DNA of 64,000 bases, taken from contig NC_058342.1 in assembly GCF_905475395.1 (NCBI RefSeq), forward strand, positions 2,803,001-2,867,000, read 5' to 3'. The notes beneath the pieces are model-generated. The model saw nothing but the letters and a program-made list of their open reading frames with translations. It made no database searches and was not told where the DNA came from. Numbering within the stretch: the first letter of the stretch is position 1; each line of letters starts with the position of its first letter. This DNA comes from Chrysoperla carnea (Eukaryota > Arthropoda > Insecta > Neuroptera > Chrysopidae). The position numbers and the translations under genes are program-made. Of this stretch, positions 10,152 to 52,447 are shown one piece after another.

Positions 10152-10157
10152 CATAAC
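10152..10157. repeat. 6-bp target site duplication of P2 (left), CATAAC
   Basis: CATAAC precedes AGTAGATAAGC here and follows GCTTATCTACT at 26007-26012. The unoccupied version of the target (TCTCATAACACGTGTAAAA) is present at about 27890-27910 in the paralogous segment of P1 and at about 4850-4870 in P0. Confidence 0.9.
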
Positions 10158-11884
10158 AGTAGATAAGCTATGCCGATCCGGGCTCACTTTGGGTCATTTT
10201 TACATGTTATTTCTTATGGGAAATTCTAAGGTTCATTTTGCACTTTTTTGTTCCTTTTTATGTAATGCTGGTTGCCTAACCTTAACGCATATTTATTATT
10301 AATGTATGTATATTGTATTCAATTACAACTCATCTGAATCACACTTTTTAACACACTTACATCATACTCTTTACTTACCATTATTTGTAATTTAGCATAC
10401 GTAGTGTACGTTGATATAATTGTCAACATAACTTCTTCATGTATTAACAGCGAATATTATTAATTTTATATAGATTGCTTAAAAAAATTTTACTTACTAC
10501 TATAAGATTTGAACGCGGGCCCTCATAAGTGGAAGTCTACTATGCTAACCACTCCACAAGACCTTCTTACAACATAGACAAAAAAAGTTAATAACTTAAA
10601 AACGTTTTTACAAAAAAAAATTTAAAATATTATATTCATGAAGGTCAACAACTGTTATTAATTAATATTCAAGTATATTATTTATACATAGTTTTCAATA
10701 TAATCTTTTTGAATGTAATTTGATATTTAATTGTTTGTTACGTATATATTTTAGTAAACATTAAAGTAGAAATCATTAATTTGATTCCCATTTCTTAACT
10801 TTTTCTCACATCCAAATGTATGTATGTATTATATATTTTTTATTTAAAGGAATATGATTAATTTTTCCAATAATAAAAGTTATGAATTATTATTATTTAA
10901 CATTCACAACTATAAATGCAACTTATATAGGCTAATTCAAAGGTACCTCACCTACTAACTTGGCATGACTGCATTTAATATACAGTTTTATATAATACTT
11001 ATCGAATGTAACAGATACCAATCATACAGATAACAACAATTATGCAGCATTTTACAAGCGAGACCATCTGAACATAATTAATTTATAAAACTAATTGCGT
11101 ATTATAAAAACATCATGAAGATCATTACCAAATGTAATTAACAGCATTTTTTCTCCAGAAACTTACCTGCAATAACATCTACATAAAAAATTAGAAGCTC
11201 ATCTGTAATAATGTTTAGATACAAATTTGTATCCAGGGAATATTATTTAAAGTGTTTTGTAAAAAGAAACTCAATTACATTATTTAGATTTTTATTTTAT
11301 TAGTAAACAATATTGATATACAGTATAATAATATTAATATATACTAAATTATAAATAGATAGATAATTTACAAGGTAATAATAATTCAATGGTTAAAGGA
11401 AACTAATACATTTTTTAATTTATTGGTAAACAATTGATATACAATACAATAATATTAATACTAAATTATAAATAGATAATTAATTTATAAGATAACAATT
11501 CTATTGCTAAAAGAAAACTCTAATTAATTTGTTTAATTATATGTAAATAATTTAATATATAAGTTTCTGCAAGTCCTATGACAAATTTTAAAACATACGA
11601 TTTTTTTTTTATAAATGAGCATATATTCAATTTCTTTTAGAGGTTATAAAAATTAATTTTACGTTACACACACAATCACACCTCAATGAGATGACATTTT
11701 AAAAATCAACAAAAAAAAAACATTTTAACATAATATTAAATAGGTAATAATTAATTAATTAATTAAAGTTTACACTGATTTTTTTAATAATATTGAGATT
11801 ATTGAGATAACTTATGAATTCAAGAATTTCACTATAAATGATATTAGCATCGATCTCTTCAATGAATAAGTGATATTGTCATGC
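10158..11884. other. P2 left outer arm: type-1 terminal repeat and pPolB 3' flank
   Basis: About 1.7 kb of AT-rich noncoding DNA lie between the element end and the pPolB stop codon. It contains the tRNA-like block (10500-10563), but no ORF of note. The mirror copy is 24286-26006; the first 600 bases recur at the left end of P3 (35450-36058). Confidence 0.85.
10500..10563 (-). ncRNA. tRNA-like sequence with Pol III A and B boxes (left arm)
   Basis: On the minus strand GAGTGGTTAGCATAG resembles an A box and GCGTTCAAATCTT a B box (GTTCAAATC fits GWTCRANNC), about 35 bases apart. A canonical cloverleaf does not form, because the acceptor and T stems mispair. Copies: 25598-25665 (mirror) and 35780-35844. 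It is either a captured tRNA-derived SINE or a Pol III promoter of the element. Confidence 0.5.
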
Positions 11885-14800
11885 TCACGAATTAACTATA
11901 CATTTTTTCTTTTTGATGCAAGGTTCATCTATATATTCAGCTTTTCGTTTATAGGTTGTAGTATTCAAAGAATAGTGACCCCAGGGTAGTGTATCACAGG
12001 AACCAGGTATAATATATCGCTTATCATCATAAGGGCTTAGAGCAATTTTTGTCTGAGTTTGGGTGTAAAGCTTAAGTTTATCAGAATTTATGAGGTTTTG
12101 ATCAACTGATATCTCTTTAAATTCCTCCAAACATTCAACATAATCTTCAAATGTTATTTTCGTACTAAGAACTGACCTTTTAACTCCCTTAGCTTTTTTT
12201 GTTAACCCAAGATTATTTGATTCTTGTTTAATATTCCCATGATTAAATATAGAATCATCAAGCGATTTTGTTTGTTTTTCTAGAGGGGTTGCTATTTTTA
12301 ATGTATATAATTTTGATCGTAATCCTACAAAATGAGTCATAGGAGTTCCATTGTTTTCATCCTTCATCATACCAAGCACTTTCTTATTAACGCAAGGTAT
12401 ATTATAAACATTAGAAGGATGGTAATCACTGGTATCAAAATACTTGTGACAATCTCTTTTTATCATTTCATAAGGATCATGGTTTTTAATTTCGTAAATA
12501 ACCGAGTCAGTATCTGTATAGATAGCGGTAGAATCATCACCCAGCTGTGGAATCATATAGCCATAATGAAAATCATAAATTGTAGTTTTAGCTAAATCTA
12601 AGATTGCCATACCAATATACAAAGGCTTATTGAAGAATATCTCCATCTTTTTCAACTCAATGGCCACCAAGTTTGAATTGAAAATTGTACAAGAATGAAA
12701 TTGGGGTTTAGATATATAAGCTTCTGCCCCATATCGACCCTCCCATTTTGTAACAAGCTTTACATTAGAATGTTTCCTAATATTTTCCATTGTTTTTCCA
12801 AAGACGGCATTGTTCATTAATTTATACAAATTTTTCTCAAAATCATTATTAGCATTCTTTCGTAGTTTGGTATTTAAATCAATATATGATTGAAGCCAAG
12901 GCGACTGTTTAAATTTTAAAACTTTATGAATTTTTTCTAATTTTAGCCCATTGTTTAATGCCTGCTTCAATGTTCTATAATGAATTACATATCGCTCTTT
13001 ATCATGAAGAGTACCCATCAATTTACTCTGTTTAGAATTAGGTGCTGATCTATGTTCAGGGCAAAAAGGTAAATCCTTATGTTTATCATGAAGTTTTTCA
13101 GGATATTTGAAATCAACTTCTAAGAAATATCCATTATCGGCATCATCCGAAATCATTGAAACATCAATATTTGTATCACACCACTCAAAACCACTGTAAG
13201 GAAGACACTGACTCATCGCCCATCCATATTGATTGTTAATGTCTAAATAAAGTAAATGCACTTCAGGCTTGGATGAATCAAATCCTGAAACGTATTTATT
13301 ATTCGCTGTAGAACGTCGTTTCATACATTGACTCAAACCACCGCGAATTCCTCGTTCAACAAACATCATCATATCTATATCAGTCAACAATTCGAGCTCA
13401 ATATTTGTATACTTCAACATACATTCCCACGTATATCCCGCTAATGTATAGTAATTTCCCGGGTCAAGGTTGTATGTAGACAGGCAGGTTGCTCTAAACG
13501 TTTCGAAAATATCCGTAAGTAGCATTATATCCGTTTCCATATAGAGATCTACATAATCACCTAAATTTGAACAATTAAATGCTGACCAAACGTTTTGCGC
13601 ATGATGATACATTTGTCTAGAACACTGTTTCTCCTCCAATCGATTATAGAATGCTTCTATGTTCGGTAGTTGAGTGCAATTAAATTTATCAAACGAATCA
13701 ACAAAATCATATGGCATTACACCTTTCTTTGTCAACAATTGAAACTGATTTTCCGAAATTTTAGAAAAATGCTTCCTCATGTTGGGAAATTCCAACAAGT
13801 ATGATGCTAGCTTATCGAGGGAAGACGCTAAAAATCTATACGAATCTATGAAACGGAATTTAATAGATGAATCATCAATGTTTTTGGTAAAATAAATATA
13901 TTTTTCTTTAGTAACAGGTAGTAGTTCAACGCGTCCACCAATCTTTGTTGCAACATCCTCCACAATCAATATACCATCATAATTCGACATATTATGGAAA
14001 ACTACAGGAACCACATGACTGTCTTGATAGTTAATATTACATGATTCATGTGCGGGACCTCTATAATTAGTTCCATCTCTATATCCACCACTTTTCGACA
14101 TAAGATGAAAATGGTCTCGAACTTTTTTCTCTCCATCAACAAACGGCTTATTGCATATATGGCAACATGATGATTTTAGAAAATCTTCCTCTTCAATGAT
14201 AGTTAATGGATCCATCTCATATGAACATAAAAATATTGTTTCTACTTCTTCAGATATTCGCATCAATTCCTTTGTAAACCAATCCATACAATCCATTCCC
14301 CGATATGAACGATAATAAGATAGGGAATCATCATGAGCACATTTAAAATAATACCCCACAACAGCAGGTATATGTTTTTGATATCGAATTTTATCATCCA
14401 TTGGTTCCAATACACTTTCAATGTCTGCGTAGATAATAAAAGGTGTTTTCTCTTTATTTTTAAAATTTTTAAACTTTAAAATATTTTCTCCAACTTTCGG
14501 CATTCTTATCGCACAGGCATTTATTTTCTTACAATTCTCATAATGGGTGTTCAATTTTTCTTCCGTGTAGAAATAATGTAAGCATCGCTCACAGAAAAAC
14601 TTTTTGTGACCTTGTTTATTCAGTTGAGTTGAAACCAAACGGGATAGATTTTTAATCCAAACGTAATGATAACGAGTAGGTAATAAATTATCATTACAAT
14701 CATCCTCAATATCATCATAATGATTCTGAATCATCAATAAGTTTATATGTTTAGTCATTTTATTTTTGCTCAGATAGCATGGTACAACATTAAAGTTTTT

Positions 14801-15742
14801 TCGATGTTTCTTCAGTACATAAACATTTATCGATACTTCATTTTGATTTTCAAAATTTGGAATCTGCTTCAAGGTCATAGGGAATTGGATACTTTTCAAT
14901 TTCAATACCTTTGAATAATGTGGGTATCTTAATACTCGATCATGATTCTTCTCAACAGGATACAATGCTGACGTCACAGAACGCGCAAAGCATGCATTAT
15001 CATCATTCTTTACGTTTATACAAGCTTCTAGTCGTTTGATTTGGGTAGGTAGTTCAATATATGACGATCCAAGTAATGGTGTATATTTATTTATATTAAC
15101 ACCAAGGTTAATAATGTTTACTAAAGTCCAACCACTGTTGCGTTCCTCGAATTCTTCCAAATCACGTGTTATCGGACCGACAACATTCTTCCCAAACCAT
15201 TCATTCACATCAGTATTCTGATATATTGGATTATTTGAAGTAGTGAAGTATTTGTGTTCAGTTATCATTTTGTTTGCAGATACAATTTGAAATTCTCCAC
15301 AGAAAATAACGTTAACTTTTATAGCTTCATGAATTTTCAGAACGTTACTTATTCTTCGTCGAAAAAGTGCTTCACAATCCTTCAAAAATGCTTTAGGATT
15401 TTTATGTTTCAGATTACTAATAATACCAGTTCTAAGCCGACTCTCAAATGCAGATAGGGAATCATCCCATCGTACTCTCTTTGCAGCCGTCTCTTTTCGA
15501 CTTTGAACACCTGCTCCGTGCTTTAACATACACTTAAGATTGCAACGATAACTTTTTACAAGAGCCAAGTTTGCTAACAAATTCTGCTTTTTACCAACAG
15601 ATTTTGCAGCTTTCAATTTTTTACATATCCGTCGAACAGCAATATTGCAATTTTTCAATCCATCTCCAATATTCAATTTATTAGCAGTCATGGTGTCGAT
15701 AGATTTTATTTTCTCCAACAAAGTAGACATTGAGTACATCAT
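11885..15742 (-). CDS. protein-primed family B DNA polymerase (pPolB), left arm
   Basis: 1285 codons from ATG 15742 (a longer frame to 15829 would read back through the leader intron). Motifs and approximate positions: C2H2-like finger CERCLHYFYTEEKLNTHYENC (~383-403 region), ExoI YADIES (~437), a Cys/His cluster CCHICNKPF...HESCN (~525-567) resembling an endonuclease VII-type zinc site, ExoII NMSNYDG (~583), ExoIII YMETDIMLL (~733), Pol A LDINNQYG (~832), Pol B KLMNNAVFGKTMEN (~973), Pol C YTDTDS (~1074), and KLY in VGLRSKLYTL (~1140). All catalytic acidic residues are present. It would replicate linear DNA from a terminal protein. It differs from the right copy at roughly 11 residues. The size is at the long end for Polinton pPolB. 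Confidence 0.95.
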   Translation of the reverse strand: MMYSMSTLLEKIKSIDTMTANKLNIGDGLKNCNIAVRRICKKLKAAKSVGKKQNLLANLALVKSYRCNLKCMLKHGAGVQSRKETAAKRVRWDDSLSAFESRLRTGIISNLKHKNPKAFLKDCEALFRRRISNVLKIHEAIKVNVIFCGEFQIVSANKMITEHKYFTTSNNPIYQNTDVNEWFGKNVVGPITRDLEEFEERNSGWTLVNIINLGVNINKYTPLLGSSYIELPTQIKRLEACINVKNDDNACFARSVTSALYPVEKNHDRVLRYPHYSKVLKLKSIQFPMTLKQIPNFENQNEVSINVYVLKKHRKNFNVVPCYLSKNKMTKHINLLMIQNHYDDIEDDCNDNLLPTRYHYVWIKNLSRLVSTQLNKQGHKKFFCERCLHYFYTEEKLNTHYENCKKINACAIRMPKVGENILKFKNFKNKEKTPFIIYADIESVLEPMDDKIRYQKHIPAVVGYYFKCAHDDSLSYYRSYRGMDCMDWFTKELMRISEEVETIFLCSYEMDPLTIIEEEDFLKSSCCHICNKPFVDGEKKVRDHFHLMSKSGGYRDGTNYRGPAHESCNINYQDSHVVPVVFHNMSNYDGILIVEDVATKIGGRVELLPVTKEKYIYFTKNIDDSSIKFRFIDSYRFLASSLDKLASYLLEFPNMRKHFSKISENQFQLLTKKGVMPYDFVDSFDKFNCTQLPNIEAFYNRLEEKQCSRQMYHHAQNVWSAFNCSNLGDYVDLYMETDIMLLTDIFETFRATCLSTYNLDPGNYYTLAGYTWECMLKYTNIELELLTDIDMMMFVERGIRGGLSQCMKRRSTANNKYVSGFDSSKPEVHLLYLDINNQYGWAMSQCLPYSGFEWCDTNIDVSMISDDADNGYFLEVDFKYPEKLHDKHKDLPFCPEHRSAPNSKQSKLMGTLHDKERYVIHYRTLKQALNNGLKLEKIHKVLKFKQSPWLQSYIDLNTKLRKNANNDFEKNLYKLMNNAVFGKTMENIRKHSNVKLVTKWEGRYGAEAYISKPQFHSCTIFNSNLVAIELKKMEIFFNKPLYIGMAILDLAKTTIYDFHYGYMIPQLGDDSTAIYTDTDSVIYEIKNHDPYEMIKRDCHKYFDTSDYHPSNVYNIPCVNKKVLGMMKDENNGTPMTHFVGLRSKLYTLKIATPLEKQTKSLDDSIFNHGNIKQESNNLGLTKKAKGVKRSVLSTKITFEDYVECLEEFKEISVDQNLINSDKLKLYTQTQTKIALSPYDDKRYIIPGSCDTLPWGHYSLNTTTYKRKAEYIDEPCIKKKKCIVNS

Positions 15743-15758
15743 TTTCACTGTATGAAAC

Positions 15759-16458
15759 CTAGAAATGATATAAGAAAAAATAGGTTTTAATCGTATAATA
15801 TATAAACAATAATTATAATTCAAATACATGAAGATAAACGAACTTTTACAAATATTACTGATATTATCACATAGAAAAAATAAAATTTTATATATATGTG
15901 TACAGTAATGCTGAACCTAAAACATAATTTTGTAATAGTTTAGATTTTCATATAAACCAAACATTCTCAATATCTATGTTTTATATACCTAAATCATATA
16001 GATAACTGCCCGTTTTGTAAGCGGGTGTTACAGATATCATGATTTGATACAATCACCCATATAGAGCTACTTCATTAATACACAGATAGAAAACGTTGAT
16101 TTTAATAGTATACAATCTAATCGAAACAATAAAACTATTTAATTTTTCACTTTACTTCAAACCCTTTACGACTCTAAGATCCTATAAGTAGCTCAATTTT
16201 CATATAAACCAAACATTCTCAATATCTATGTTTTATATACCTAAATCATATAGATAACTGCCCGTTTTGTAAGCGGGTCTTACAGATATCATGATTTGAT
16301 ACAATCACCCATATAGAGCTACTACATTAATACACAGATAGAAAACGTTGATTTTAATAGTATACAATCTAATCCAAACAAAAATATATTCTAGTTTTCA
16401 CTTCGCTTTATCATTACAAAGTAATAGATAGATGACGTGTTCGTGTTATGAAACTTAC
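15759..16458 (-). other. leader intron of left pPolB, 700 nt, with internal 250-bp duplication
   Basis: The donor AAG|GTAAGT is at 16458 and the acceptor TTTCTAG at 15759, mirroring the right arm. The left intron is 252 bases longer because the segment beginning TTTCATATAAACCAAACATT occurs twice (about 15945 and 16197). Confidence 0.75.
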
Positions 16459-16611
16459 CTTACAACAACAATAATCAACAGTTATATATTTTTTAAGACA
16501 CACAAACTTTACAACAATGTTCACGATATATAACACACTTTTATTATAATAATTTTTAAGGCACTTTTATTATGATTATTAATAACTTGTTCACTTTCAC
16601 TGTAAATATTC

Positions 16612-16648
16612 AACTGAGTCAGGTCAAGGTAATAACTCTGCTTATATA
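16612..16648 (-). promoter_or_regulatory. pPolB promoter, left arm (TATATAAG, TCAGTT)
   Basis: TATATAAG (16648-16641) and TCAGTT (16617-16612) are separated by four more bases than in the right arm, putting the initiator A at +33 rather than +29 from the first T of the TATA box. The extra bases lie in GCAGAGTTATTACC versus GCAGATTACC. Confidence 0.7.
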
Positions 16649-16829
16649 CGTTTTTCAAAATTGAAATATTTGAACATGTTTTGACATGTAAAAAATTGTT
16701 CTAGAACATTATTTTATAGTTAAATTGAAAAATAGATTAAATATAATGGACAAGAAAGTTTTTATAAATAATAGTTGTTACATTTCCATTTTTAATGTTT
16801 TTTTTTTTTGTTTTTTTTCAAAGTAAGCA

Positions 16830-17070
16830 ATATGACACTTGAAATTTACATAATAAAAATACATGTTCAAACTTGTTTGAATCGACTTTGATCTTAAAAT
16901 AATTTTACACGTGTACTTTAGTCAGCAATTTTCAAGAATATGTTGAAATAGATTTGACCTTGAAAAATATGATATCATCATCCTGTTACAAGATCAAACT
17001 TGTTTGAATCGACTTAAAATAATTTTACATGTGTCAAGACACGTGAGCGGATGTTAATATTTTTTTATTG
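16830..17070. repeat. AT-rich palindrome unit (254-bp family), left arm
   Basis: One unit in reverse orientation with CACGTG, TTCAAACTTGTTTGAA, ATGATATCAT and the ATGTTGAAATAGATTTGACC segment. It mirrors 19340-19605 and sits upstream of the pPolB promoter. Confidence 0.85.
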
Positions 17071-17140
17071 AATCAGCAAATATTTTTTTTTTTTTTTTAA
17101 TGAAATAAGATGAATCAGCAGTGTAATTTTATAAATCACA

Positions 17141-17400
17141 AGTATGTTCACAAAAACGGTCCACTATGACAAATTTTTATTGTTACAAGTATGTTCATAA
17201 AAACGGTCCACTATGAAATAAGACCTTTTTTATCAATATATGAATCGTGTAAAGAGTCGAACCCTAACCACCGGACTTTAAATTTGGAGCTACGACCTTT
17301 TCCACTAAATAAATGTTTGGATCGTGAACTTTTTGTAATTCTTCGGCATAGAAACCACCCTATATATCTTCGTTGCTGTAATCCTTCAATAAATATGCAG
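17141..17400 (-). pseudogene. integrase chromodomain tail remnant, left arm
   Basis: Reverse-strand homologue of 9160-9466. It has stop codons and small deletions (for example in the region equivalent to AKRGSKVKVRW) and the same duplicated HTC tail. It adjoins the central minisatellite exactly as the 9160 copy adjoins its array. Non-functional. Confidence 0.65.
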
Positions 17401-19023
17401 GTCTGTTTCTAAACAGGTCTGTTTCTAAACAGGTCTCTTTCTAAACAGGTCTGTTTCTAAACAGGTCTGTTTCTAAACAGGTCTCTTTCTAAACAGGTCT
17501 GTTTCTAAACAGGTCTGTTTCTAAACAGGTCTGTTTTTAAACAGGTCTGTTTCTAAACAGGTCTCTTTCTAAACAGGTCTGTTTCTAAACAGGTCCCTTT
17601 TTAAACAGGTCTGTTTCTAAACAGGTCTGTATCTAAACAGGTCTCTTTCTAAACAGGTCTCTTTATAAACAGGTCTGTTTCTAAACAGGTCTGTTTCTAA
17701 ACAGGTCTCTTTCTATACAGGTCTGTTTCTAAACAGGTCTGTTTCTAAACAGGTCTGTTTCTAAACAGGTCTGTTTCTAAACAGGTCTGTTTCTAAACAG
17801 GTCTGTTTCTAAACAGGTCTGTATCTAAACAGGTCTCTTTCTAAAAAGGTCTCTTTCTAAACAGGTCTGTTTCTAAACAGGTCTCTTTCTAAACAGGTCT
17901 GTTTCTAAACAGGTCTGTTTCTAAACAGGTCTCTTTCTAAACAGGTCTCTTTCTAAACAGGTCTGTTTCTAAACAGGTCTCTTTCTAAACAGGTCTGTTT
18001 CTAAACAGGTCTCTTTTTAAACAGGTCTGTTTCTAAACAGGTCTCTTTCTAAACAGGTCTCTTTCTAAACAGGTCTCTTTCTTAACAGGTCTGTTTCTAA
18101 ACAGGTCTGTTTCTAAACAGGTCTCTTTCTAAACAGGTCTGTTTCTAAACAGGTCTCTTTTTAAACAGGTCTGTTTCTAAACAGGTCTGTATCTAAACAG
18201 GTCTCTTTCTAAACAGGTCTCTTTATAAACAGGTCTGTTTCTAAACAGGTCTGTTTCTAAACAGGTCTCTTTCTAAACAGGTCTCTTTCTAAACAGGTCT
18301 GTTTCTAAACAGGTCTGTTTCTAAACAGGTCTGTTTCTAAACAGGTCTGTTTCTAAACAGGTCTGTTTCTAAACAGGTCTGTATCTAAACAGGTCTCTTT
18401 CTAAAAAGGTCTCTTTCTAAACAGGTCTGTTTCTAAACAGGTCTCTTTCTAAACAGGTCTGTTTCTAAACAGGTCTGTTTCTAAACAGGTCTCTTTCTAA
18501 ACAGGTCTCTTTCTAAACAGATCTGTTTCTAAACAGGTCTCTTTCTAAACAGGTCTGTTTCTAAACAGGTCTCTTTTTAAACAGGTCTGTTTCTAAACAG
18601 GTCTCTTTCTAAACAGGTCTCTTTCTAAACAGGTCTGTTTCTAAACAGGTCTGTTTCTAAACAGGTCTCTTTCTAAACAGGTCTGTTTCTAAACAGGTCT
18701 CTTTCTAAACAGGTCTCTTTCTAAACAGGTCTGTTTCTAAACAGGTCTGTTTCTAAACAGGTCTCTTTCTAAACAGGTCTCTTTCTAAACAGGTCTCTTT
18801 CTAAACAGGTCTGTTTCTAAACAGGTATGTTTCTAAACAGACCAGTATTAAACAGGTCAAAACCTGTATTAAACAGATACAGACCAGAAAGAGACCTGTT
18901 TAGATACAGAACTGTTTAGAAACAGACCTGTTTAGAAAGAGACCTGTTTAGAAAGAGACCTGTTTAGATACAGACCTGTTTAAAAAGAGACCTGTTTAGA
19001 AACAGACCTGTTTAGAAACAGAC
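17401..19023. repeat. P2 central 16-bp minisatellite with orientation switch and 560-bp higher-order unit
   Basis: About 90 units of AAACAGGTCTGTTTCT or AAACAGGTCTCTTTCT fill 17401-18840. The G variant contains the perfect inverted repeat AAACAG-GT-CTGTTT. Diagnostic variants recur exactly 560 bases (35 units) apart (GTATCTAAAC at 17821 and 18381; CTTTATAAAC at 17661 and 18221). At about 18840-18890 a few TTTAATACTGG-type units occur and the array switches strand (AGACCTGTTTAGAAAC) until 19023. The switch marks the true symmetry point of the palindrome, which has become off-centre through array expansion. Confidence 0.95.
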
Positions 19024-19290
19024 CTACATATTTATTGAAGGATTACAGCAACGAAGATATATAGGGTGGTTTCTATGCCGAAGAATTACAAAAAGTTCAC
19101 GATCCAAACATTTATTTAGTGGAAAAGGTCTTAGCTCCAAATTTAAAGTCCGGTGGTTAGGGTTCGACTCTTTACACGATTCATATATTGATAAAAAAGG
19201 TCTTATTTCATAGTGGACCGTTTTTATGAACATACTTGTAACAATAAAAATTTGTCATAGTAGACCGCTTTTGTGAACATACTTGTGATT
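19024..19290 (+). pseudogene. integrase chromodomain tail remnant, right arm
   Basis: Mirror of 17141-17400. It begins at YIY/LLKD-like codons after the minisatellite, contains a TAG soon after EDI, and ends with the doubled ERFYEHTC/DRFCEHTC tail. Non-functional. Confidence 0.65.
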
Positions 19291-19339
19291 TATAAAATTA
19301 CACTGCTGATTCATCTTATTTCATTAAAAAAAAAATAAA

Positions 19340-19605
19340 AATATTTGCTGATTCAATAAAAAAATATTAACATCCGCTCACGTGTCTTGACACATGTAAA
19401 ATTATTTTAAGTCGATTCAAACAAGTTTGAACTTGTAACAGGGTGATGATATCATATTTTTCAAGGTCAAATCTATTTCAACATATTCTTGAAAATTGCT
19501 GACTAAAGTACACGTGTAAAATTATTTTAAGATCAAAGTCGATTCAAACAAGTTTGAACATGTATTTTTATTATGTAAATTTCAAGTGTCATATTGCTTA
19601 CTTTG
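19340..19605. repeat. AT-rich palindrome unit (254-bp family), right arm
   Basis: Mirror of 16830-17070: CACGTG, TTCAAACAAGTTTGAA twice, and ATGATATCAT, ending in ATTTCAAGTGTCATATTGC. It lies about 170 bases upstream of the pPolB TATA box. Confidence 0.85.
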
Positions 19606-19777
19606 AAAAAAAACAAAAAAAAAACATTAAAAATGGAAATGTAACAACTATTATTTATAAAAACTTTCTTGTCTATTATATATAATCTATTTTTCAAATT
19701 GTTAAACTATAAAATAATGTTCTAGAACAATTTTTTACATGTCAAAACATGTTCAAATATTTCAATTTTGAAAAATG

Positions 19778-19810
19778 TATATAAGCAGATTACCTTGACC
19801 TGACTCAGTT
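19778..19810 (+). promoter_or_regulatory. pPolB promoter, right arm (TATATAAG, TCAGTT)
   Basis: TATATAAG is at 19778-19785 and the arthropod initiator TCAGTT at 19805-19810, with the predicted +1 A at 19807, 29 bases after the first T of the TATA box. This is textbook RNA polymerase II spacing and implies host transcription of the polymerase gene. Confidence 0.8.
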
Positions 19811-19963
19811 GAATATTTACAGTGAAAGTGAACAAGTTATTAATAATCATAATAAAAGTGCCTTAAAAATTATTATAATAAAAGTGTGTTATATATCGTG
19901 AACATTGTTGTAAAGTTTGTGTGTCTTAAAAAATATATAACTGTTGATTATTGTTGTTGTAAG

Positions 19964-20411
19964 GTAAGTTTCATAACACGAACACGTCATCTATCTATTA
20001 CTTTGTAATGATAAAGCGAAGTGAAAACTAGAATATATTTTTGTTTGGATTAGATTGTATACTATTAAAATCAACGTTTTCTATCTGTGTATTAATGTAG
20101 TAGCTCTATATGGGTGATTGTATCAAATCATGATATCTGTAAGACCCGCTTACAAAACGGGCAGTTATCTATATGATTTAGGTATATAAAACATAGATAT
20201 TGAGAATGTTTGGTTTATATGAAAATCTAAACTATTACAAAATTATGTTTTAGGTTCAGCATTACTGTACACATATATATAAAATTTTATTTTTTCTATG
20301 TGATAATATCAGTAATATTTGTAAAAGTTCGTTTATCTTCATGTATTTGAATTATAATTATTGATTATATATTATACGATTAAAACCTATTTTTTCTTAT
20401 ATCATTTCTAG
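19964..20411 (+). other. leader intron of right pPolB, 448 nt
   Basis: The donor AAG|GTAAGT at 19964 and the acceptor TTTCTAG ending at 20411 are strong GT-AG sites between the predicted transcription start (19807) and the pPolB ATG (20428). Exon 1 would be a 157-nt untranslated leader. Confidence 0.75.
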
Positions 20412-20427
20412 GTTTCATACAGTGAAA

Positions 20428-23400
20428 ATGACGTACTCAATGTCTACTTTGTTGGAGAAAATAAAATCTATCGACACCATGACTGCTAATAAATTGAATA
20501 TTGGAGATGGATTGAAAAATTGCAATATTGCTGTTCGACGGATATGTAAAAAATTGAAAGCTGCAAAATCTGTTGGTAAAAAGCAGAATTTGTTAGCAAA
20601 CTTGGCTCTTGTAAAAAGTTATCGTTGCAATCTTAAGTGTATGTTAAAGCACGGAGCAGGTGTTCAAAGTCGAAAAGAGACGGCTGCAAAGAGAGTACGA
20701 TGGGATGATTCCCTATCTGCATTTGAGAGTCGGCTTAGAACTGGTATTATTAGTAATCTGAAACATAAAGATCCTAAAGCATTTTTGAAGGATTGTGAAG
20801 CACTTTTTCGACGAAGAATAAGTAACGTTCTGAAAATTCATGAAGCTATAAAAGTTAACGTTATTTTCTGTGGAGAATTTCAAATTGTATCTGCAAACAA
20901 AATGATAACTGAACACAAATACTTCACTACTTCAAATAATCCAATATATCAGAATACTGATGTGAATGAATGGTTTGGGAAGAATGTTGTCGGTCCGATA
21001 ACACGTGATTTGGAAGAATTCGAGGAACGCAACAGTGGTTGGACTTTAGTAAACATTATTAACCTTGGTGTTAATATAAATAAATATACACCATTACTTG
21101 GATCGTCATATATTGAACTACCTACCCAAATCAAACGACTAGAAGCTTGTATAAACGTAAAGAATGATGATAATGCATGCTTTGCGCGTTCTGTGACGTC
21201 AGCATTGTATCCTGTTGAGAAGAATCATGATCGAGTATTAAGATACCCACATTATTCAAAGGTATTGAAATTGAAAAGTATCCAATTCCCTATGACCTTG
21301 AAGCAGATTCCAAATTTTGAAAATCAAAATGAAGTATCGATAAATGTTTATGTACTGAAGAAACATCGAAAAAACTTTAATGTTGTACCATGCTATCTGA
21401 GCAAAAATAAAATGACTAAACATATAAACTTATTGATGATTCAGAATCATTATGATGATATTGAGGATGATTGTAATGATAATTTATTACCTACTCGTTA
21501 TCATTACGTTTGGATTAAAAATCTATCCCGTTTGGTTTCAACTCAACTGAATAAACAAGGTCACAAAAAGTTTTTCTGTGAGCGATGCTTACATTATTTC
21601 TACACGGAAGAAAAATTGAACACCCATTATGAGAATTGTAAGAAAATAAATGACTGTGCGATAAGAATGCCGAAAGTTGGAGAAAATATTTTAAAGTTTA
21701 AAAATTTTAAAAATAAAGAGAAAACACCTTTTATTATCTACGCAGACATTGAAAGTGTATTGGAACCAATGGATGATAAAATTCGATATCAAAAACATAT
21801 ACCTGCTGTTGTGGGGTATTATTTTAAATGTGCTCATGATGATTCCCTATCTTATTATCGTTCATATCGGGGAATGGATTGTATGGATTGGTTTACAAAG
21901 GAATTGATGCGAATATCTGAAGAAGTAGAAACAATATTTTTATGTTCATATGAGATGGATCCATTAACTATCATTGAAGAGGAAGATTTTCTAAAATCAT
22001 CATGTTGCCATATATGCAATAAGCCGTTTGTTGATGGAGAGAAAAAAGTTCGAGACCATTTTCATCTTATGTCGAAAAGTGGTGGATATAGAGATGGAAC
22101 TAATTATAGAGGTCCCGCACATGAATCATGTAATATTAACTATCAAGACAGTCATGTGGTTCCTGTAGTTTTCCATAATATGTCGAATTATGATGGTATA
22201 TTGATTGTGGAGGATGTTGCAACAAAGATTGGTGGACGCGTTGAACTACTACCTGTTACTAAAGAAAAATATATTTATTTTACCAAAAACATTGATGATT
22301 CATCTATTAAATTCCGTTTCATAGATTCGTATAGATTTTTAGCGTCTTCCCTCGATAAGCTAGCATCATACTTGTTGGAATTTCCCAACATGAGGAAGCA
22401 TTTTTCTAAAATTTCGGAAAATCAGTTTCAATTGTTGACAAAGAAAGGTGTAATGCCATATGATTTTGTTGATTCGTTTGATAAATTTAATTACACTCAA
22501 CTACCGAACATAGAAGCATTCTATAATCGATTGGAGGAGAAACAGTGTTCTAGACAAATGTATCATCATGCGCAAAACGTTTGGTCAGCATTTAATTGTT
22601 CAAATTTAGGTGATTATGTAGATCTCTATATGGAAACGGATATAATGCTACTTACGGATATTTTCGAAACGTTTAGAGCAACCTGCCTGTCTACATACAA
22701 CCTTGACCCGGGAAATTACTATACATTAGCGGGATATACGTGGGAATGTATGTTGAAGTATACAAATATTGAGCTCGAATTGTTGACTGATATAGATATG
22801 ATGATGTTTGTTGAACGAGGAATTCGCGGTGGTTTGAGTCAATGTATGAAACGACGTTCTACAGCGAATAATAAATACGTTTCAGGATTTGATTCATCCA
22901 AGCCTGAAGTGCATTTACTTTATTTAGACATTAACAATCAATATGGATGGGCGATGAGTCAGTGTCTTCCTTACCGTGGTTTTGAGTGGTGTGATACAAA
23001 TATTGATGTTTCAATGATTTCGGATGATGCCGATAACGGATATTTCTTAGAAGTTGATCTCAAATATCCTGAAAAACTTCATGATAAACATAAGGATTTA
23101 CCTTTTTGCCCTGAACATAGATCAGCACCTAATTCTAAACAGAGTAAATTGATGGGTACTCTTCATGATAATGAGCGATATGTAATTCATTATAGAACAT
23201 TGAAGCAGGCATTAAACAATGGGCTAAAATTAGAAAAAATTCATAAAGTTTTAAAATTTAAACAGTCGCCTTGGCTTCAATCATATATTGATTTAAATAC
23301 CAAACTACGAAAGAATGCTAATAATGATTTTGAGAAAAATTTGTATAAATTAATGAACAATGCCGTCTTTGGAAAAACAATGGAAAATATTAGGAAACAT

Positions 23401-24285
23401 TCTAATGTAAAGCTTGTTACAAAATGGGAGGGTCGATATGGGGCAGAAGCTTATATATCTAAACCCCAATTTCATTCTTGTACAATTTTCAATTCAAACT
23501 TGGTGGCCATTGAGTTGAAAAAGATGGAGATATTCTTCAATAAGCCTTTGTATATTGGTATGGCAATCTTAGATTTAGCTAAAACTACAATTTATGATTT
23601 TCATTATGGCTATATGATTCCACAGCTGGGTGATGATTCTACCGCTATCTATACAGATACTGACTCGGTTATTTACGAAATTAAAAACCATGATTCTTAT
23701 GAAATGATAAAAAGAGATTGTCACAAGTATTTTGATACCAGTGATTACCATCCTTCTAATGTTTATAATATACCTTGCGTTAATAAGAAAGTGCTTGGTA
23801 TGATGAAGGATGAAAACAATGGAACTCCTATGACTCATTTTGTAGGATTACGATCAAAATTATATACATTAAAAATAGCAACCCCTCTAGAAAAACAAAC
23901 AAAATCGCTTGATGATGCTATATTTAATCATGGGAATATTAAACAAGAATCAAATAATCTTGGGTTAACAAAAAAAGCTAAGGGAGTTAAAAGGTCAGTT
24001 CTTAGTACGAAAATAACATTTGAAGATTATGTTGAATGTTTGGAGGAATTTAAAGAGATATCAGTTGATCAAAACCTCATAAAATCTGATAAACTTAAGC
24101 TTTACACCCAAACTCAGACAAAAATTGCTCTAAGCCCTTATGATGATAAGCGATATATTATACCTGGTTCCTATGATACACTACCCTGGGGTCACTATTC
24201 TTTGAATACTACAACCTATAAACGAAAAGCTGAATATATAGATGAACCTTGCATCAAAAAGAAAAAATGTATAGTTAATTCGTGA
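20428..24285 (+). CDS. protein-primed family B DNA polymerase (pPolB), right arm
   Basis: 1285 codons from ATG 20428 (an apparent start six bases upstream is GTG). The domain layout is as in the left copy: an unassigned basic N-terminal region that includes NDDNACFARSVTSALYP (~245), a C2H2-like finger, ExoI-III, a zinc cluster between ExoI and ExoII, and Pol A, B and C with YTDTDS. Substitutions relative to the left copy include N/D, A/D, C/Y, S/R, F/L, K/N, P/S, S/A, N/K and C/Y; none is in a catalytic motif. Two intact copies at ~99% identity mean either recent duplication or ongoing conversion between arms. The C-terminus is basic (IKKKKC). Confidence 0.95.
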   Translation: MTYSMSTLLEKIKSIDTMTANKLNIGDGLKNCNIAVRRICKKLKAAKSVGKKQNLLANLALVKSYRCNLKCMLKHGAGVQSRKETAAKRVRWDDSLSAFESRLRTGIISNLKHKDPKAFLKDCEALFRRRISNVLKIHEAIKVNVIFCGEFQIVSANKMITEHKYFTTSNNPIYQNTDVNEWFGKNVVGPITRDLEEFEERNSGWTLVNIINLGVNINKYTPLLGSSYIELPTQIKRLEACINVKNDDNACFARSVTSALYPVEKNHDRVLRYPHYSKVLKLKSIQFPMTLKQIPNFENQNEVSINVYVLKKHRKNFNVVPCYLSKNKMTKHINLLMIQNHYDDIEDDCNDNLLPTRYHYVWIKNLSRLVSTQLNKQGHKKFFCERCLHYFYTEEKLNTHYENCKKINDCAIRMPKVGENILKFKNFKNKEKTPFIIYADIESVLEPMDDKIRYQKHIPAVVGYYFKCAHDDSLSYYRSYRGMDCMDWFTKELMRISEEVETIFLCSYEMDPLTIIEEEDFLKSSCCHICNKPFVDGEKKVRDHFHLMSKSGGYRDGTNYRGPAHESCNINYQDSHVVPVVFHNMSNYDGILIVEDVATKIGGRVELLPVTKEKYIYFTKNIDDSSIKFRFIDSYRFLASSLDKLASYLLEFPNMRKHFSKISENQFQLLTKKGVMPYDFVDSFDKFNYTQLPNIEAFYNRLEEKQCSRQMYHHAQNVWSAFNCSNLGDYVDLYMETDIMLLTDIFETFRATCLSTYNLDPGNYYTLAGYTWECMLKYTNIELELLTDIDMMMFVERGIRGGLSQCMKRRSTANNKYVSGFDSSKPEVHLLYLDINNQYGWAMSQCLPYRGFEWCDTNIDVSMISDDADNGYFLEVDLKYPEKLHDKHKDLPFCPEHRSAPNSKQSKLMGTLHDNERYVIHYRTLKQALNNGLKLEKIHKVLKFKQSPWLQSYIDLNTKLRKNANNDFEKNLYKLMNNAVFGKTMENIRKHSNVKLVTKWEGRYGAEAYISKPQFHSCTIFNSNLVAIELKKMEIFFNKPLYIGMAILDLAKTTIYDFHYGYMIPQLGDDSTAIYTDTDSVIYEIKNHDSYEMIKRDCHKYFDTSDYHPSNVYNIPCVNKKVLGMMKDENNGTPMTHFVGLRSKLYTLKIATPLEKQTKSLDDAIFNHGNIKQESNNLGLTKKAKGVKRSVLSTKITFEDYVECLEEFKEISVDQNLIKSDKLKLYTQTQTKIALSPYDDKRYIIPGSYDTLPWGHYSLNTTTYKRKAEYIDEPCIKKKKCIVNS

Positions 24286-26006
24286 GCATGACAATATCAC
24301 TTATTCATTGAAGAGATCGATGCTAATATCATTTATAGTGAAATTCTTGAATTCATAAGTTATCTCAATAATCTCAATATTGTTAAAAAATCAGTGTAAA
24401 CTTTATTAATTAATTAATTATTACCTATTTAATATTATGTTAAAATGTTTTTTTGTTGATTTTTAAAATGTCATCTCATTGAGGTGTGATTGTGTGTGTA
24501 ACGTAAAATTAATTTTTATAACCTCTAAAAGAAATTGAATATATGCTCATTTATAAAAAAAAAAATCGTATGTTTTAAAATTTGTCATAGGACTTGCAGA
24601 AACTTATATATTAAATTATTTACATATAATTAAACAAATTAATTAGAGTTTTCTTTTAGCAATAGAATTGTTATCTTATAAATTAATTATCTATTTATAA
24701 TTTAGTATTAATATTATTGTATTCTATATCAATTGTTTACCAATAAATTAAAAAATGTATTAGTTTCCTTTAACCATTGAATTATTATTACCTTGTAAAT
24801 TATCTATCTATTTATAATTTAGTATATATTAATATTATTATACTGTATATCAATATTGTTTACTAATAAAATAAAAATCTAAATAATGTAATTGAGTTTC
24901 TTTTTACAAAACACTTTAAATAATATTCCCTGGATACAAATTTGTATCTAAACATTATTACAGATGAGCTTCTAATTTTTTATGTAGATGTTATTGCAGG
25001 TAAGTTTCTGGAGAAAAAATGCTTTTAATTACATTTGGTAATGATCTTCATGATGTTTTTATAATACACAATTAGTTTTATAAATTAATTATGTTCAGAT
25101 GGTCTCGCTTGTAAAATGCTGCATAATTGTTGTTATCTGTATTATTGGTATCTGTTACATTCGATAAGTATTATATAAAACTGTATATTAAATGCAGTCA
25201 TGTCAAGTTAGTAGGTGAGGTACCTTTGAATTAGCCTATATAAGTTGCATTTATAGTTGTGAATGTTAAATAATAATAATTCATAACTTTTATTATTGGA
25301 AAAATTAATCATATTCCTTTAAATAAAAAATATATAATACATACATACATTTGGATGTGAGAAAAATTTAAGAAATGGGAATCAAATTAATGATTTCTAC
25401 TAAAATGTTTAAATATATACGTAACAAACAATTAAATATCAAATTACATTCAAAAAGATTATATTGAAAACTATGTATAAATAATATACTTGAATATTAA
25501 TTAATAACAGTTGTTGACCTTCATGAATATAATATTTTAAATTTTTTTTGTAAAAACGTTTTTAAGTTATTAACTTTTTTTGTCTATGTTGTAACAAGGT
25601 CTTGTGGGGGAGTGGTTAGCATAGTAGACTTCCACTTATGAGGGCCCGCGTTCAAATCTTATAGTAGTAAGTAAAATTTTTTTAAGCAATGCATATAATA
25701 TTAATAATATTCGCTGTTAATACATGAAGAAGTTATGTTGACAATTATATCAACGTACACTACGTATGCTAAATTACAAATAATGGTAAGTAAAGAGTAT
25801 GATGTAAGTGTGTTAACAAGTGTGATTCAGATGAGTTGTAATTGAATACAATATACATACATTAATAATAAGTATGCGTTAAGGTTAGGCAACCAGCATT
25901 ACATAAAAAGGAACAAAAAAGTGCAAAATGAACCTTAGAATTTCCCATAAGAAATAACATGTAAAAATGACCCAAAGTGAGCCCGGATCGGCATAGCTTA
26001 TCTACT
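24286..26006. other. P2 right outer arm: pPolB 3' flank and type-1 terminal repeat
   Basis: Inverted copy of 10158-11884, with no gene besides the tRNA-like block. It ends GCATAGCTTATCTACT at the TSD. Confidence 0.85.
25598..25665 (+). ncRNA. tRNA-like sequence with Pol III A and B boxes (right arm)
   Basis: GGGGGAGTGGTTAGCATAG and GCGTTCAAATCTT give A- and B-box matches in the order and spacing of a tRNA gene. This copy has four more G residues than the left arm. A partial anticodon-like hairpin (CATAG/TTATG) can form, but not a full cloverleaf. Confidence 0.5.
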
Positions 26007-26012
26007 CATAAC
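26007..26012. repeat. 6-bp target site duplication of P2 (right), CATAAC
   Basis: Exact copy of 10152-10157. The sequence after it (ACGTGTAAAATTATTTTAAG, then AAACAGGATGATG) matches the uninterrupted paralog at 27899-27930. Confidence 0.9.
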
Positions 26013-35449: not shown

Positions 35450-36058
35450 AGTAGATAAGCTATGCCGGTCCGGGCCCACTTTTGGTCATTTTTACATGTT
35501 CTTTCTTATGGGAAATTCTAAGGTTCATTTTGCACTTTTTTGTTCCTTTTTATGTAATGCTGGTTGCCTAACCTTAACGCATACTTACTAATTGTATACA
35601 AGTACAACCCATCTGAATCATACTTGTTAACACACTTACATCATACTCTTTACTTACCATTATTTGTAATTTAGCATACATAGCGTACGTTGGTATAATT
35701 GTCAACATAACTTCTTCATGTATTAACAGCGAATATTATTAATATTATATGGATTGCTTAAAAAAATTTTATTTACTACTATAAGTTTTGAACGCGGGCC
35801 CTCATAAGTGGAAGTCTACTATGCTAACCACTCCCCCACAAGACCTTGTTACAACATAGACAAAAAGTTAATAACTTAAAAACGTTTTTACAAAAATAAT
35901 TTAAAATATTATATTCATGAAGGTCAACAACTGTTATTAATTAATATTCAAGTATATTATTTATACATAGTTTTCAATATAATCTTTTTGAATGTAATTT
36001 GATATTTAATTGTTTGTTACGTATATATTTAAACATTTTAGTAGAAATCATTAATTTG
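35450..36058. repeat. type-1 terminal repeat at P3 left end
   Basis: Colinear with the outer 600 bases of P2 (10158-10790), including the tRNA-like block, then breaking off at ATTAATTTGAT where the 21-bp minisatellite begins. Confidence 0.85.
35780..35844 (-). ncRNA. tRNA-like sequence, P3 copy
   Basis: Third copy of the A/B-box block. The B box here is GTTCAAAAC, still matching GWTCRANNC. It retains the long G run like the P2 right arm. Confidence 0.45.
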
Positions 36059-36059
36059 A

Positions 36060-36260
36060 TGACCTGTTTAATACTGGTCTGTATCTGTTTAATACTGGTC
36101 TGTATCTGTTTTATACTGGTTTTGACCTGTTTAATACTGGTCTGTATCTGTTTAATACTGGTTTTGACCTGTTTAATACTGGTCTGTATCTGTTTAATAC
36201 TGGTTTTGACCTGTTTAATACTGGTCTGTATCTGTTTAATACTGGTTTTGACCAGTTTCC
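36060..36260. repeat. 21-bp minisatellite, short array
   Basis: About nine CTGTTTAATACTGG units with alternating TCTGTAT and TTTTGAC spacers, the same family as 8287-9157. It begins precisely at the break in the type-1 terminal repeat. Confidence 0.9.
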
Positions 36261-36685
36261 TAGCCTAGACTTTACCTATAATACATCGTTTATTATAAAA
36301 TACATCGAGATTTGTAAACATTTTACATCGTTCTAAATTCACACACAAGTATGTTGATGTATTTACAATTTATACTTTCCAAGTACCAGACAATTGTGAC
36401 GTCAGCCATCAGAACAACCATCGCGTGATCCTCTTTGGCCAATGATATTGGCGTATTTTATCACCAAATTTGGACAACTAAAAATAATAAAATCCTTCCA
36501 AAAACAAAATTAAATTAAAAATTATAGAATAAAAGACCCAAATCAAAAAAAATCCATTAAACTCTACTATTTCTTAATTTTAAATTCGAAATTATTCAAA
36601 ATTTTCTGTCATCGTTAAGCGAAACTTATATGTTTCCAATTTACTGCAATAATAAATAAAATAATAATAATATAAAAGTCACTTT
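36261..36685. other. noncoding segment with CRE and CCAAT boxes
   Basis: AT-rich except for a GC-richer island at about 36395-36455 that contains TGACGTCA, GGCCAATGATATTGG (facing CCAAT boxes) and ATCGCGTGATC. This could be a displaced element promoter. No ORF. It joins the truncated pPolB at 36686. Confidence 0.5.
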
Positions 36686-37118
36686 GGAAATTTTCCCTGT
36701 ACGCGTTAGTTCGAACACTGCGGGGCATCATCTACTGGCTGTGGAGAATGGGAACAGTCACCACTTTGGCTGGATAAAAAATTTAGCAAAGTTGAGTCGA
36801 TCGGGTGTAACAAAATACAAGAATAAAATTTATTTATGTGATCGATGTCTCAACTATTTTGCTACAGAAGTCAAACTCCAACAGCATTCAGTAAATTGTG
36901 GTGAAAAAGCAGCGGTGCGGGTACGAATGCCTGAAACTGATGACGAGCGGTTCGTTGAGTTCAAAGATTTCAACAGCAAGGAACGTGTTGAGTATATGGT
37001 GTACGCTGACTTTGAGGCACTATTGGTACCACAGGACCATGAACACATGGAAACGGATCATGAGTCTTATACAAAAAATATTCAAAAACATATACCCTAC
37101 AGTGTGGGGTATTATGTA

Positions 37119-37122
37119 CATT
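37119..37122. repeat. 4-bp target duplication of the provirus, CATT (left)
   Basis: CATT lies directly before the LTR start TGTTGTATAAC and recurs at 48264-48267 directly after the LTR end ATATATCA. Confidence 0.85.
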
Positions 37123-37986
37123 TGTTGTATAACCCACAAACAATAAGGCCCATTGTATTAAATCACTTAGTAAGCAAAATATTATTTTATTAATACTTAA
37201 TAAGCATAATATTATCTAATTAACTATTATATGTGGATCACCCACACTTAAAATAATACAATGTATATATTTAATTAATCACTTCTTTTTAACACGTAAG
37301 ATAAATAAAAATACAATGTATATATTTAACTAATCATTTCTTTTAAAACGTAAGATAAATAAAAATAAAAATAATAAACAATAATATTATAAACGAAATA
37401 GAATGTAATTCCAAGAATAGACATAACATAAGGGCAAGAGATCAAACTATCAAAATTAATAATCGTTATGACTATTCTTCGAAATTTGAAATAATGCACA
37501 TGTAATCAGAATTTGAAAACAAAGAAAACCTTTATCTAAAACAGTATAAATACCAAACATCCAAACAAGCCAAACTCATTCCTAAGTCAATTCTTAAATT
37601 CTCAAGTCAAATTTTAAGTCATTCTTAATTAAATATTTGTCAACGACATTACGTTCAATTATTGTTAAAGTGTTCAATATATTATTATTTTGCAAATAAT
37701 AAAATAATCAACTTAAATAAAATTAATTAAAAATTATTCAAAGTTTTATTATTGCAACAACGCCTTAAAAGTAAAATTAAATACAAATACAACGAGCACT
37801 AAAATTATCATCAACTTTATTCAAAAGAAAAACTATCAACATCAAGTGGAAGAAACATTTAACATTGACTAAGAATCGCTCGATGTCAATTGTCGAGTGT
37901 AAATAATTCATTGACTGGTGACAGCGAAACTGCAACGCAAGAACCAAAAACCTTTTGGTATATTGGAACAACTCCGGGATATATCA
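37123..37986 (+). repeat. 5' LTR, 864 bp
   Basis: It starts TGTTGTATAACCC and ends GGGATATATCA (TG...CA). TATAAA is at 37545-37550, with a TCATT initiator-like site near 37576, and A-rich polyadenylation-like AATAAA sites downstream. A TGG-initiated primer-binding-site candidate (TGGTGACAGCGG) lies 11 bases past the LTR, at 37998. Confidence 0.9.
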
Positions 37987-39226: not shown

Positions 39227-40297
39227 ATGCCAAAGAAAGGTCACTTAGTTAAAATAAAAATGGCACCACCAGTCGAAAGTACCACAGCGACAGCAACAAT
39301 AGATCCAAAACAATGGATATGGATGTTATCAATGATCAAAGAATTCAATGGTAAAGATATTCAAAGTTTGGAAGAATATCTCAACAGCGTAAATACTGTG
39401 AAACAATTAATTGGAACAGATAACACAATGTTAAATGAAAAATTAGCTATCTGTGCATACAATAAAATACCAGCAAATACAGCATTGGAATTGGGATACG
39501 AATCGCCACCAGCATGGGACACATTAAGAACCAAGTTACAACAAATATATGGGGATAAGACTCATATGGACTTACGTATGGAACGGTTAGAAACCGCAAG
39601 ACAACTTCCATCTGAAAATGTTACGGAATATTATACGAGATTGAAGCAATTGGGAGACAAATGCGTTGTCTGTCTTAAACAATCCACACCCGCTGCTTCC
39701 TTACCGTATGAAGCCGCCATGATCAGAAGAACTTGTTTACGAAGATTCATTTACCACAGTCAACCCGAGATATCAAGAGTATTGCGAATTGTATCAAAAC
39801 TCGAATCATTGGAAGAAGCTTATACAAGAGCATTAGAAGAAGAATCGGCACAAAAAATTTATCAAGTCGCTTATAAAGAAAGAAATAAACCCAAGCTGTA
39901 TTGTACAAAATGCCATATGAATAATCATACATGGAAGACATGTAGACGTAAAAATTATAACAATTAACAATACAATAAAAACAATGGTACTTCGAACAAT
40001 TATAATAAAACAAACAACAATACAAATCGTAACAATACGAATATTGAAAATACTGCGCCAAAGACTTGTTTGTATTGTAAAAAAGTGGGTCATACAATTG
40101 ACAATTGTTTTAAAAAATTAAATAATGAAAAATATAGAAATCAAGCAGCTATTAATACTGTCATTGAAGATATGGATAATTTAAACTTGAACCAGGGAAC
40201 TGTCGAGATGTCCGTCAGCCAACCCCGAATTGTAGACATCAACAAAATCCAATCGAATCTATATACCATAATCATAAAAGAGGAACCATATGGATAG
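39227..40297 (+). pseudogene. provirus gag, one in-frame stop
   Basis: From ATG 39227 (an alternative at 39257 gives MAPPVES) the frame encodes a helical capsid-like region (LRTKLQQIYGDKTHMDLRME). Two CX2CX4HX4C zinc knuckles follow: CTKCHMNNHTWKTC before, and CLYCKKVGHTIDNC after, a TAA at 39965-39967. Both sides of the stop are in the same frame, so this is a single nonsense change or a readthrough site. Gag ends at 40297 and pol continues in the -1 frame. Confidence 0.85.
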
Positions 40298-52269: not shown

Positions 52270-52447
52270 TCTATAACATATAAAAACAGAGGTGTATTAT
52301 AATAATATTTAAAAAATATATATTTATAAATTATCGAAAATACATTATAATTATTATTCTGAAAAGTATAAAAACAGAGTTGTATTATAATAATATTTAA
52401 AAAATATATATTTATAAATTATCGAAAATACATTATAATTATTATTC
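52270..52447. repeat. 88-bp direct repeat downstream of the inverted 141-aa gene
   Basis: The block from ATAAAAACAGAG through TTATTATTCTGAAAAGT occurs twice in tandem, 88 bases apart. The second copy includes the 3' codons of the 141-aa gene, so the duplication involved the gene end. Confidence 0.85.

Follow-up and report, generated by a model that had tools for sequence, protein, structure and literature searches.

A palindromic element of 15,849 bp was found in a stretch of 64,000 nucleotides from the lacewing Chrysoperla carnea (NCBI RefSeq assembly GCF_905475395.1, contig NC_058342.1, positions 2,803,001 to 2,867,000; the whole stretch is called the window below). It occupies positions 10158..26006 of the window, carries one gene for a phi29-like B-family DNA polymerase in each of its two inverted arms, and belongs to a family of Polinton-derived copies. 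Our preferred explanation, to which we assign a probability of roughly 0.7, is that snap-back synthesis in protein-primed replication turns the polymerase end of a Polinton into such palindromes, and that the products integrate with a borrowed integrase and keep spreading. The fold-back mechanism proposed in the initial annotation is the best supported one; the genome shows in addition that the palindromes formed repeatedly, that they spread, and that they keep their arms matched.

Structure of the palindromic element

The element has the termini AGTAGATAAGC...GCTTATCTACT at positions 10158 and 26006. It is flanked by two exact copies of the hexamer CATAAC (10152..10157 and 26007..26012), the target site duplication that had been claimed in the initial annotation of this DNA. 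The left arm (10158..17536, plus strand) begins with a terminal repeat of about 0.5 kb (10158..10657, plus strand, AGTAGATAAGC end); the right arm comprises positions 18888..26006 (minus strand). Inverted arms of about 7 kb with identical ends, also claimed, were recovered as well: the arms are 99% alike, and their alignment of 7205 bp contains 45 mismatches and 13 gap openings. A segment of 252 bp is duplicated in the left arm (at about 16.0-16.4k) and single in the right arm.

Each arm contains one outward-reading polymerase frame, and both frames are open, as had been stated. The left one (11885..15829, minus strand, 1314 codons) starts with ATG, and the right one (20422..24285, plus strand, 1287 codons) starts with GTG. 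They differ in 11 of the 1282 shared codons (stop included), and ten of these differences are non-synonymous. Apart from the polymerase frames, no open reading frame (ORF) of at least 150 amino acids (aa) is present inside the element.

A minisatellite with 16-bp units runs forward from 17398 to 18858 (about 91 copies, plus strand) and reversed from 18886 to 19025 (about nine copies, minus strand). The axis of the palindrome therefore lies near 18.85k (18840..18886), and the array is lopsided. A chance origin of the palindrome is excluded by the length of the arms, the duplication, and the sister copies in the genome.

A family of palindromic copies

Copies are named by contig and position; in these names the window is C6:2803001-2867000. 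The inventory is a lower bound, as it comprises the best 40 of 56 candidates in the terminal search, the best 36 of 566 in the polymerase search, and the best 40 of 327 in the centre-repeat search. The terminal 543 bp have at least 61 matches in the genome, 38 of which start at the terminus (query base 1 or 2; counted by hand). Of these, 26 form 13 facing pairs, one belongs to C6:5890, and 11 are unpaired. Eight unpaired termini (C225, C6:6349771, C6:12465013, C6:7415075, C5:72757363, C5:72791709, C6:18783909 and C2:17645653) were left out of the reading.

In 12 of the 13 two-ended copies, inverted homology extends past the repeat of about 0.5 kb. A genome whose copies are all single-armed and have ordinary gene content, which would have refuted the initial annotation, is not what was found. 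The palindromic copies are the window copy, C5:66894030, C1:50103382, C3:57692045, C3:15586703, C4:36877545, C1:139329907, C6:6043010, C6:3468551, C197:1524240, C6:1254891 and C6:9271482; C6:1254891 and C6:9271482 were judged from their ends. In C1:139329907, 458 bp of family sequence are followed by an inverted minisatellite, and the left arm of C6:9271482 contains an insertion. Short two-ended copies measure 1.2, 1.9, 5.6 and 6.3 kb. A fourteenth copy, C6:5890, has inverted arms and a damaged left end. In three fetched copies (window, C5:66894030 and C3:57692045) the full polymerase frame is open in both arms. The initial annotation had described a single polymerase-only palindromic derivative; palindromic and polymerase-only it is, and the single case has become a family with recurrent palindrome formation.

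The sole non-palindromic two-ended copy is C5:71568512, which has 509 bp of inverted sequence and a single broken polymerase. At this locus (L020, 2431-4375), a DDE_Tnp_4 transposase adjoins an ORF for a YqaJ-like recombinase, probably as part of a nested element. In the window itself, a second terminus of the family is located at 35450-36060 (93% over about 630 bp), where it is cut off by a CTGTTTAATACTGGT minisatellite.

The genome-wide search for further paired termini that the initial annotation had proposed thus gave 13 facing pairs, and matching 6-bp duplications flank ten of them, the non-palindromic copy included. The hexamers are CATAAC (window), CCTTTA, GAGGAC, AGGTTA, AATATA, AACAAG, GGTTCG, TCCAGG (C197:1524240, where the left end has one additional base), CGTCTG (C6:1254891) and CTGGTG (C6:9271482). 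These duplications bear on the question of whether the palindromes are assembly artefacts, for example fold-back reads that result from a missed sequencing adapter. Long palindromes are a known hazard of long-read data. An adapter fold-back would, however, return to the same flank, yet ten of 13 copies have matching duplications at both ends, and the arms carry private differences. Moreover, according to PMC10116181, the assembly was made from HiFi data with hifiasm. An artefact, which we consider extremely improbable, is at odds with the unique flanks, with the target duplications and with the fact that the axes differ.

Position and nature of the palindrome axes

At least six different axes were distinguished, five of which resolve to loops of 25-192 nt. 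A single origin of the palindrome would give one common axis; the axes differ, and palindromes have therefore formed repeatedly. For example, C3:15586703 (6.3 kb) ends within the polymerase gene near codon 801. Its strand reaches arm position 3191 and returns from 3149; 36 nt lie between the arms, and the same 6-bp word is found on both sides. In C197:1524240 (1.2 kb), the turn is located near arm position 550; the loop measures 77 nt, and there is a 4-bp microhomology. The loop of C6:5890 has 192 nt. C6:3468551 has a 25-nt loop within a 19-bp perfect stem; if its 308-bp perfect stems are considered instead, they are 103 nt apart. C1:50103382, C3:57692045 and C5:66894030 have in common a loop of 32 nt next to another tandem array. 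The window copy turns inside its 16-bp minisatellite, where its axis resolves neither a loop nor a microhomology, and C1:139329907 turns in a different minisatellite. In C4:36877545, the same internal stretch has been lost from both arms with the same junction.

Microhomology was examined at the two junctions for which an unfolded relative of the axis was available, and it was present at both, namely C3:15586703 (6 bp) and C197:1524240 (4 bp). Apart from internal deletions and insertions, each of these copies with a described axis has retained the sequence from the terminus to its axis, as is predicted by fold-back from one end. The loops and the microhomologies lend support to the fold-back origin that had been proposed initially. 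The minisatellite units in the window (17398-18858) look nearly self-complementary (AAACAGGTCTGTTT), and such arrays may therefore be hot spots of fold-back.

A similar product would result from an expansion of the terminal repeat, in which end-to-end recombination swaps one end of an ordinary linear element for a copy of the other. C5:71568512, with its 509-bp inverted repeat and its single polymerase, looks like the unexpanded form. C6:1254 (33 kb) and C6:9271 (28 kb), which were read at their ends only, could hold unique middles. Such an expansion should often leave a unique middle with genes of the other half, whereas five axes have only 25-192 nt; we therefore regard it as unlikely.

Similarity of the arms within and between copies

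In seven copies that were compared, the two arms of one copy differ by 0-0.62%. The difference between these copies is 1.3-11%, except for the recent C1/C3/C5/C4 group, whose members are within 0.1% of each other. A tree was calculated from 28 arm ends, among them those of 13 copies with both arms present. The arms pair by copy in nine of 13 cases. Pairs with starred support are those of C3:15586703, C6:1254, C6:3468, C6:6043 and C197, and the arms are identical in C1:139, C1:50, C3:57 and C4. C6_5890_L forms a long branch, probably due to an insertion.

The C1, C3 and C5 copies share their axis, and their ancestor was therefore already palindromic. Their arms were compared over 6.3 kb (cut at 6340 bp, with the last 15 alignment columns omitted). 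Seven events are shared by the two arms of one and the same copy: C1 has four of them, including one that breaks the polymerase frame, C5 has two, and C3 has one. Four others are confined to a single arm, and none is conflicting. It follows that mutations reached both arms after the palindrome existed.

It has to be considered that the palindromes are old and that their arms are kept alike by gene conversion in place, as in the palindromes of sex chromosomes. Near-identical arms in copies that differ much from one another, mutations common to both arms, and the many copies on contig C6 are all in agreement with this. Conversion leaves unexplained the several axes, the short palindromes with loop and microhomology, and the intact 6-bp duplications. 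Furthermore, the window arms differ as under neutral drift, and the arms of C6:6043 have frame breaks at different places, so that conversion would be incomplete there. We consider it improbable, though slightly less so than expansion of the terminal repeat. If instead one arm serves as template for both during propagation, as snap-back synthesis proposes, the arms are identical at insertion and drift neutrally afterwards. With about 3e-9 changes per site per generation in insects, and provided that the arms were identical at insertion, the difference of 0.6% would date the insertion of the window copy to roughly one million generations ago, with far younger ages for the copies on C1, C3 and C5; these values are orders of magnitude only.

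The polymerase

Both window polymerases match the Pfam family DNA_pol_B_2 (E about 1e-26). The fold was predicted for the right-arm copy, from which it was adopted for the left-arm one, and is phi29-like, i.e. of the protein-primed type; this prediction fits protein priming, as the initial annotation had supposed. A sequence-profile search of the PDB returned no polymerase, whereas the predicted fold did match one. The polymerase is 47% identical to PolB of a Megastigmus wasp adintovirus (over 97% of the query), and the C. carnea database protein LOC123302552 is identical over 66% of it. Beetle and wasp relatives are among the database proteins. Five contigs of 3-7 kb from bacterial bins (L030-L034) encode polymerases that are 30-42% identical, and a further relative is protein P0013, which is labelled Rickettsia endosymbiont of Ceutorhynchus assimilis. 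The relatives with bacterial labels are more likely stray eukaryotic or viral DNA. No relatives of the polymerase were found in the viral contig collection.

Between copies, the ratio of non-synonymous to synonymous substitution rates (dN/dS) was 0.13-0.17 in six comparisons (735-1282 codons) and 0.25-0.39 in three shorter ones (322-661 codons). These values point to purifying selection on the polymerase between copies. The differences between the two window polymerases are those expected from neutral drift. The polymerase is therefore maintained during spread and drifts after landing.

This selection also bears on the possibility that repair of chromosome breaks by the host folded a chromosomal copy and that an integrase moved the palindrome by cut-and-paste, with the encoded polymerase having no part in making it. 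Fold-back at breaks does give short inverted duplications in yeast (PMC11724301). Selection on the polymerase argues against such a passive role. In addition, 12 of the 13 two-ended copies have the element's own terminus twice, which a random break and its repair would not restore. This origin is thus very unlikely.

A full Polinton and candidate helper integrases

The region at C3:6505350 (L043) encodes a polymerase that is 54% identical to that of the family and lies next to an integrase. In L043, the Pfam cut-offs are exceeded by the matches of this integrase, of a PLA2-like ORF, of a Pox_A32-like ATPase and of two neighbouring ORFs that match a double-jelly-roll capsid protein; a match to adenovirus endoprotease (adenain-like protease) and the chromodomain of the integrase are below the cut-off. 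Judged by this gene content, a full, ordinary Polinton is present in the same genome. Its polymerase has no inverted partner among the best 36 of 566 polymerase candidates.

A second integrase ORF (PF00665) adjoins the arm at C5:73336 and is 76% identical to that of L043. It has 4466 database relatives; a chromodomain is present in eight of 120 among the matches listed. When the window and the other loci available were searched by tblastn with the L028 integrase, L028 itself and, weakly, L029 were matched, and no others. An ankyrin-repeat ORF at L029 7643-8182, near the integrase-bearing arm, is reminiscent of the ORF beside the polymerase of the second family described below. The C5:73336 locus resembled a complete parent of the palindromes at first sight, which now seems doubtful. 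Only parts of its spacer are common to the inner arms of C6:3468 and C6:5890, its integrase is found in neither of them, and its orientation is unlike that of the full Polinton.

A second Polinton-type family in the centre of the element

The inner part of the left arm (16640..17398, plus strand) is derived from elsewhere. In the inner arms, positions 16826-17127 correspond to the terminal repeat of a second family of the Polinton type, which is found, together with a polymerase of its own, at C6:8919500-8931700. The part of the inner arms that extends from 17127 into the minisatellite corresponds to sequence downstream of an ankyrin-like ORF of the second family. Thus the minisatellite centre described initially does contain the 16-bp array, and it is also an end piece of another family. 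In our reading, a piece of the second family would have inserted into a single-arm ancestor, and fold-back would have followed inside its minisatellite.

The terminal repeat of the second family has at least 185 matches in the genome. In several regions of C6 and C1, two centre repeats face each other at a distance of about 10-17 kb, and the second family is therefore itself numerous. Polymerase fragments of this type and ankyrin-like ORFs are also found in the window at 36683-37123, 48263-51224 and 52445-56550. Two opposed fragments flank a minisatellite, with identities of 96% and 76% to the reference copy; they are therefore unlikely to be the arms of one copy.

Evaluation of the proposed mechanism

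The parent of the palindromes would be a linear, protein-primed element with a terminal repeat of about 0.5 kb, and its copying would proceed inward from the end next to the polymerase gene. Either inside a minisatellite or at a short word that is complementary to itself, the growing (or displaced) strand would fold back. The polymerase would then copy its own strand back to the start, which would give a hairpin and subsequently a linear palindrome that lacks the distal part of the parent and whose two ends stem from the same origin. If the fold lay beyond the polymerase gene, each arm would contain this gene. Finally, the palindrome would integrate with a 6-bp duplication by means of an integrase from full Polintons of the same genome. 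In this scheme, we infer replication off the chromosome, the terminal protein, the folding strand, and the integrase acting in trans. More tentatively, and at somewhat less than even odds, the palindrome may be a propagating genome and not a dead-end by-product: the information of one arm would be rewritten into two in each cycle via the hairpin, the arms would be kept concerted by replication, and the integrase would be borrowed.

Several observations weigh against snap-back replication followed by spread. The arms are less alike in C6:5890 (98.5-99.4%, with one stretch at 93.9%), C6:3468 (98.1-99.5%), C197 (97.5%), C6:9271 (96.3-99.2%) and C6:2187-2202 (96.4%, minisatellite included). In the tree, the window arms are no closer to each other than to the C6:2202 arm, with which they make up an unresolved trio, and the arm pairs of C5:66, C5:71 and C6:5890 were not recovered. 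The extra 252 bp of the left window arm and the unequal halves of its minisatellite must have arisen afterwards. A matching 6-bp duplication is absent in three of the 13 two-ended copies (C5:66894030, C1:139329907 and C6:6043010). Gene conversion in place could be an alternative source of one mutation in both arms. Possible helper integrases are known from L028 and L043, from a fragment in L029, and from the database protein P0131 of the same species; the extrachromosomal form, the terminal protein and the activity of the integrase are all things that we infer.

Comparison with known systems

The family shares with Polinton/Maverick elements and adintoviruses a phi29-like polymerase, 6-bp duplications and AGT-type ends. 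In the window copy these are a B-family polymerase of the protein-primed and adintovirus type, the 6-bp duplication, and AG(T)-type inverted ends. Intact vertebrate Mavericks have repeats between 46 and 1447 bp in length, (AGT)2 motifs at their ends and 6-bp duplications (PMC8097293); the repeat of about 0.5 kb in the unfolded copy of the family is comparable. In contrast, the window copy has no ORF of at least 150 aa for an internal retroviral-like integrase, a capsid, a packaging ATPase, a protease, or the virion genes of adintoviruses. Furthermore, the repeats of the family reach half the element, and two polymerase genes are arranged head to head. L043 likewise has a related polymerase and differs by its integrase, ATPase, protease, PLA2-like and capsid ORFs. 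The element is therefore Polinton-derived, yet it is not a Polinton by gene content.

The short axis loop with microhomology of snap-back palindromes is found in the family (five loops, two junctions). Symmetric recombinant adenovirus 12 DNA (SYREC) is reportedly a palindrome of a protein-primed genome, with one viral end twice and foreign DNA in the middle. SYREC is said to be a laboratory product in virions, whereas the lacewing palindromes are a spreading transposon family. The invertron plasmids pAL2-1 and kalilo are protein-primed. According to PMC1864894, these linear plasmids of fungal mitochondria have terminal inverted repeats, and their integrated copies lie amid long inverted repeats that are ascribed to racquet or panhandle intermediates. 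There, the long repeats that surround the plasmid consist of mitochondrial DNA of the host, whereas the lacewing arms are the element's own. A palindromic Polinton was not found in the open-licence literature searched, which is weak evidence of absence.

Other features of the window

A Gypsy-type element is located at 39227-47376, with gag, a frame for reverse transcriptase, RNase H and integrase (1048 aa), and an envelope-like Baculo_F ORF (623 aa), all of which are open. Similar tandem repeats at 37152-37367 and 47429-47644 may be its long terminal repeats. A tRNA-like stretch noticed by eye near 10497-10570 was rejected: ARAGORN predicted no tRNA in the window, and an Rfam scan (E up to 0.5) gave none.

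Implications

The replication mode of Polintons has so far been inferred from their genes. The lacewing genome preserves a series of junctions that resemble frozen replication intermediates, together with copies whose halves share fresh mutations. With sequence data and simple DNA assays, it thereby becomes possible to test whether a eukaryotic protein-primed polymerase performs fold-back synthesis and whether Polintons replicate off the chromosome. Furthermore, a route becomes visible by which a virus-like element is reduced to a mobile element that encodes nothing but a polymerase, and then to short palindromes without one.
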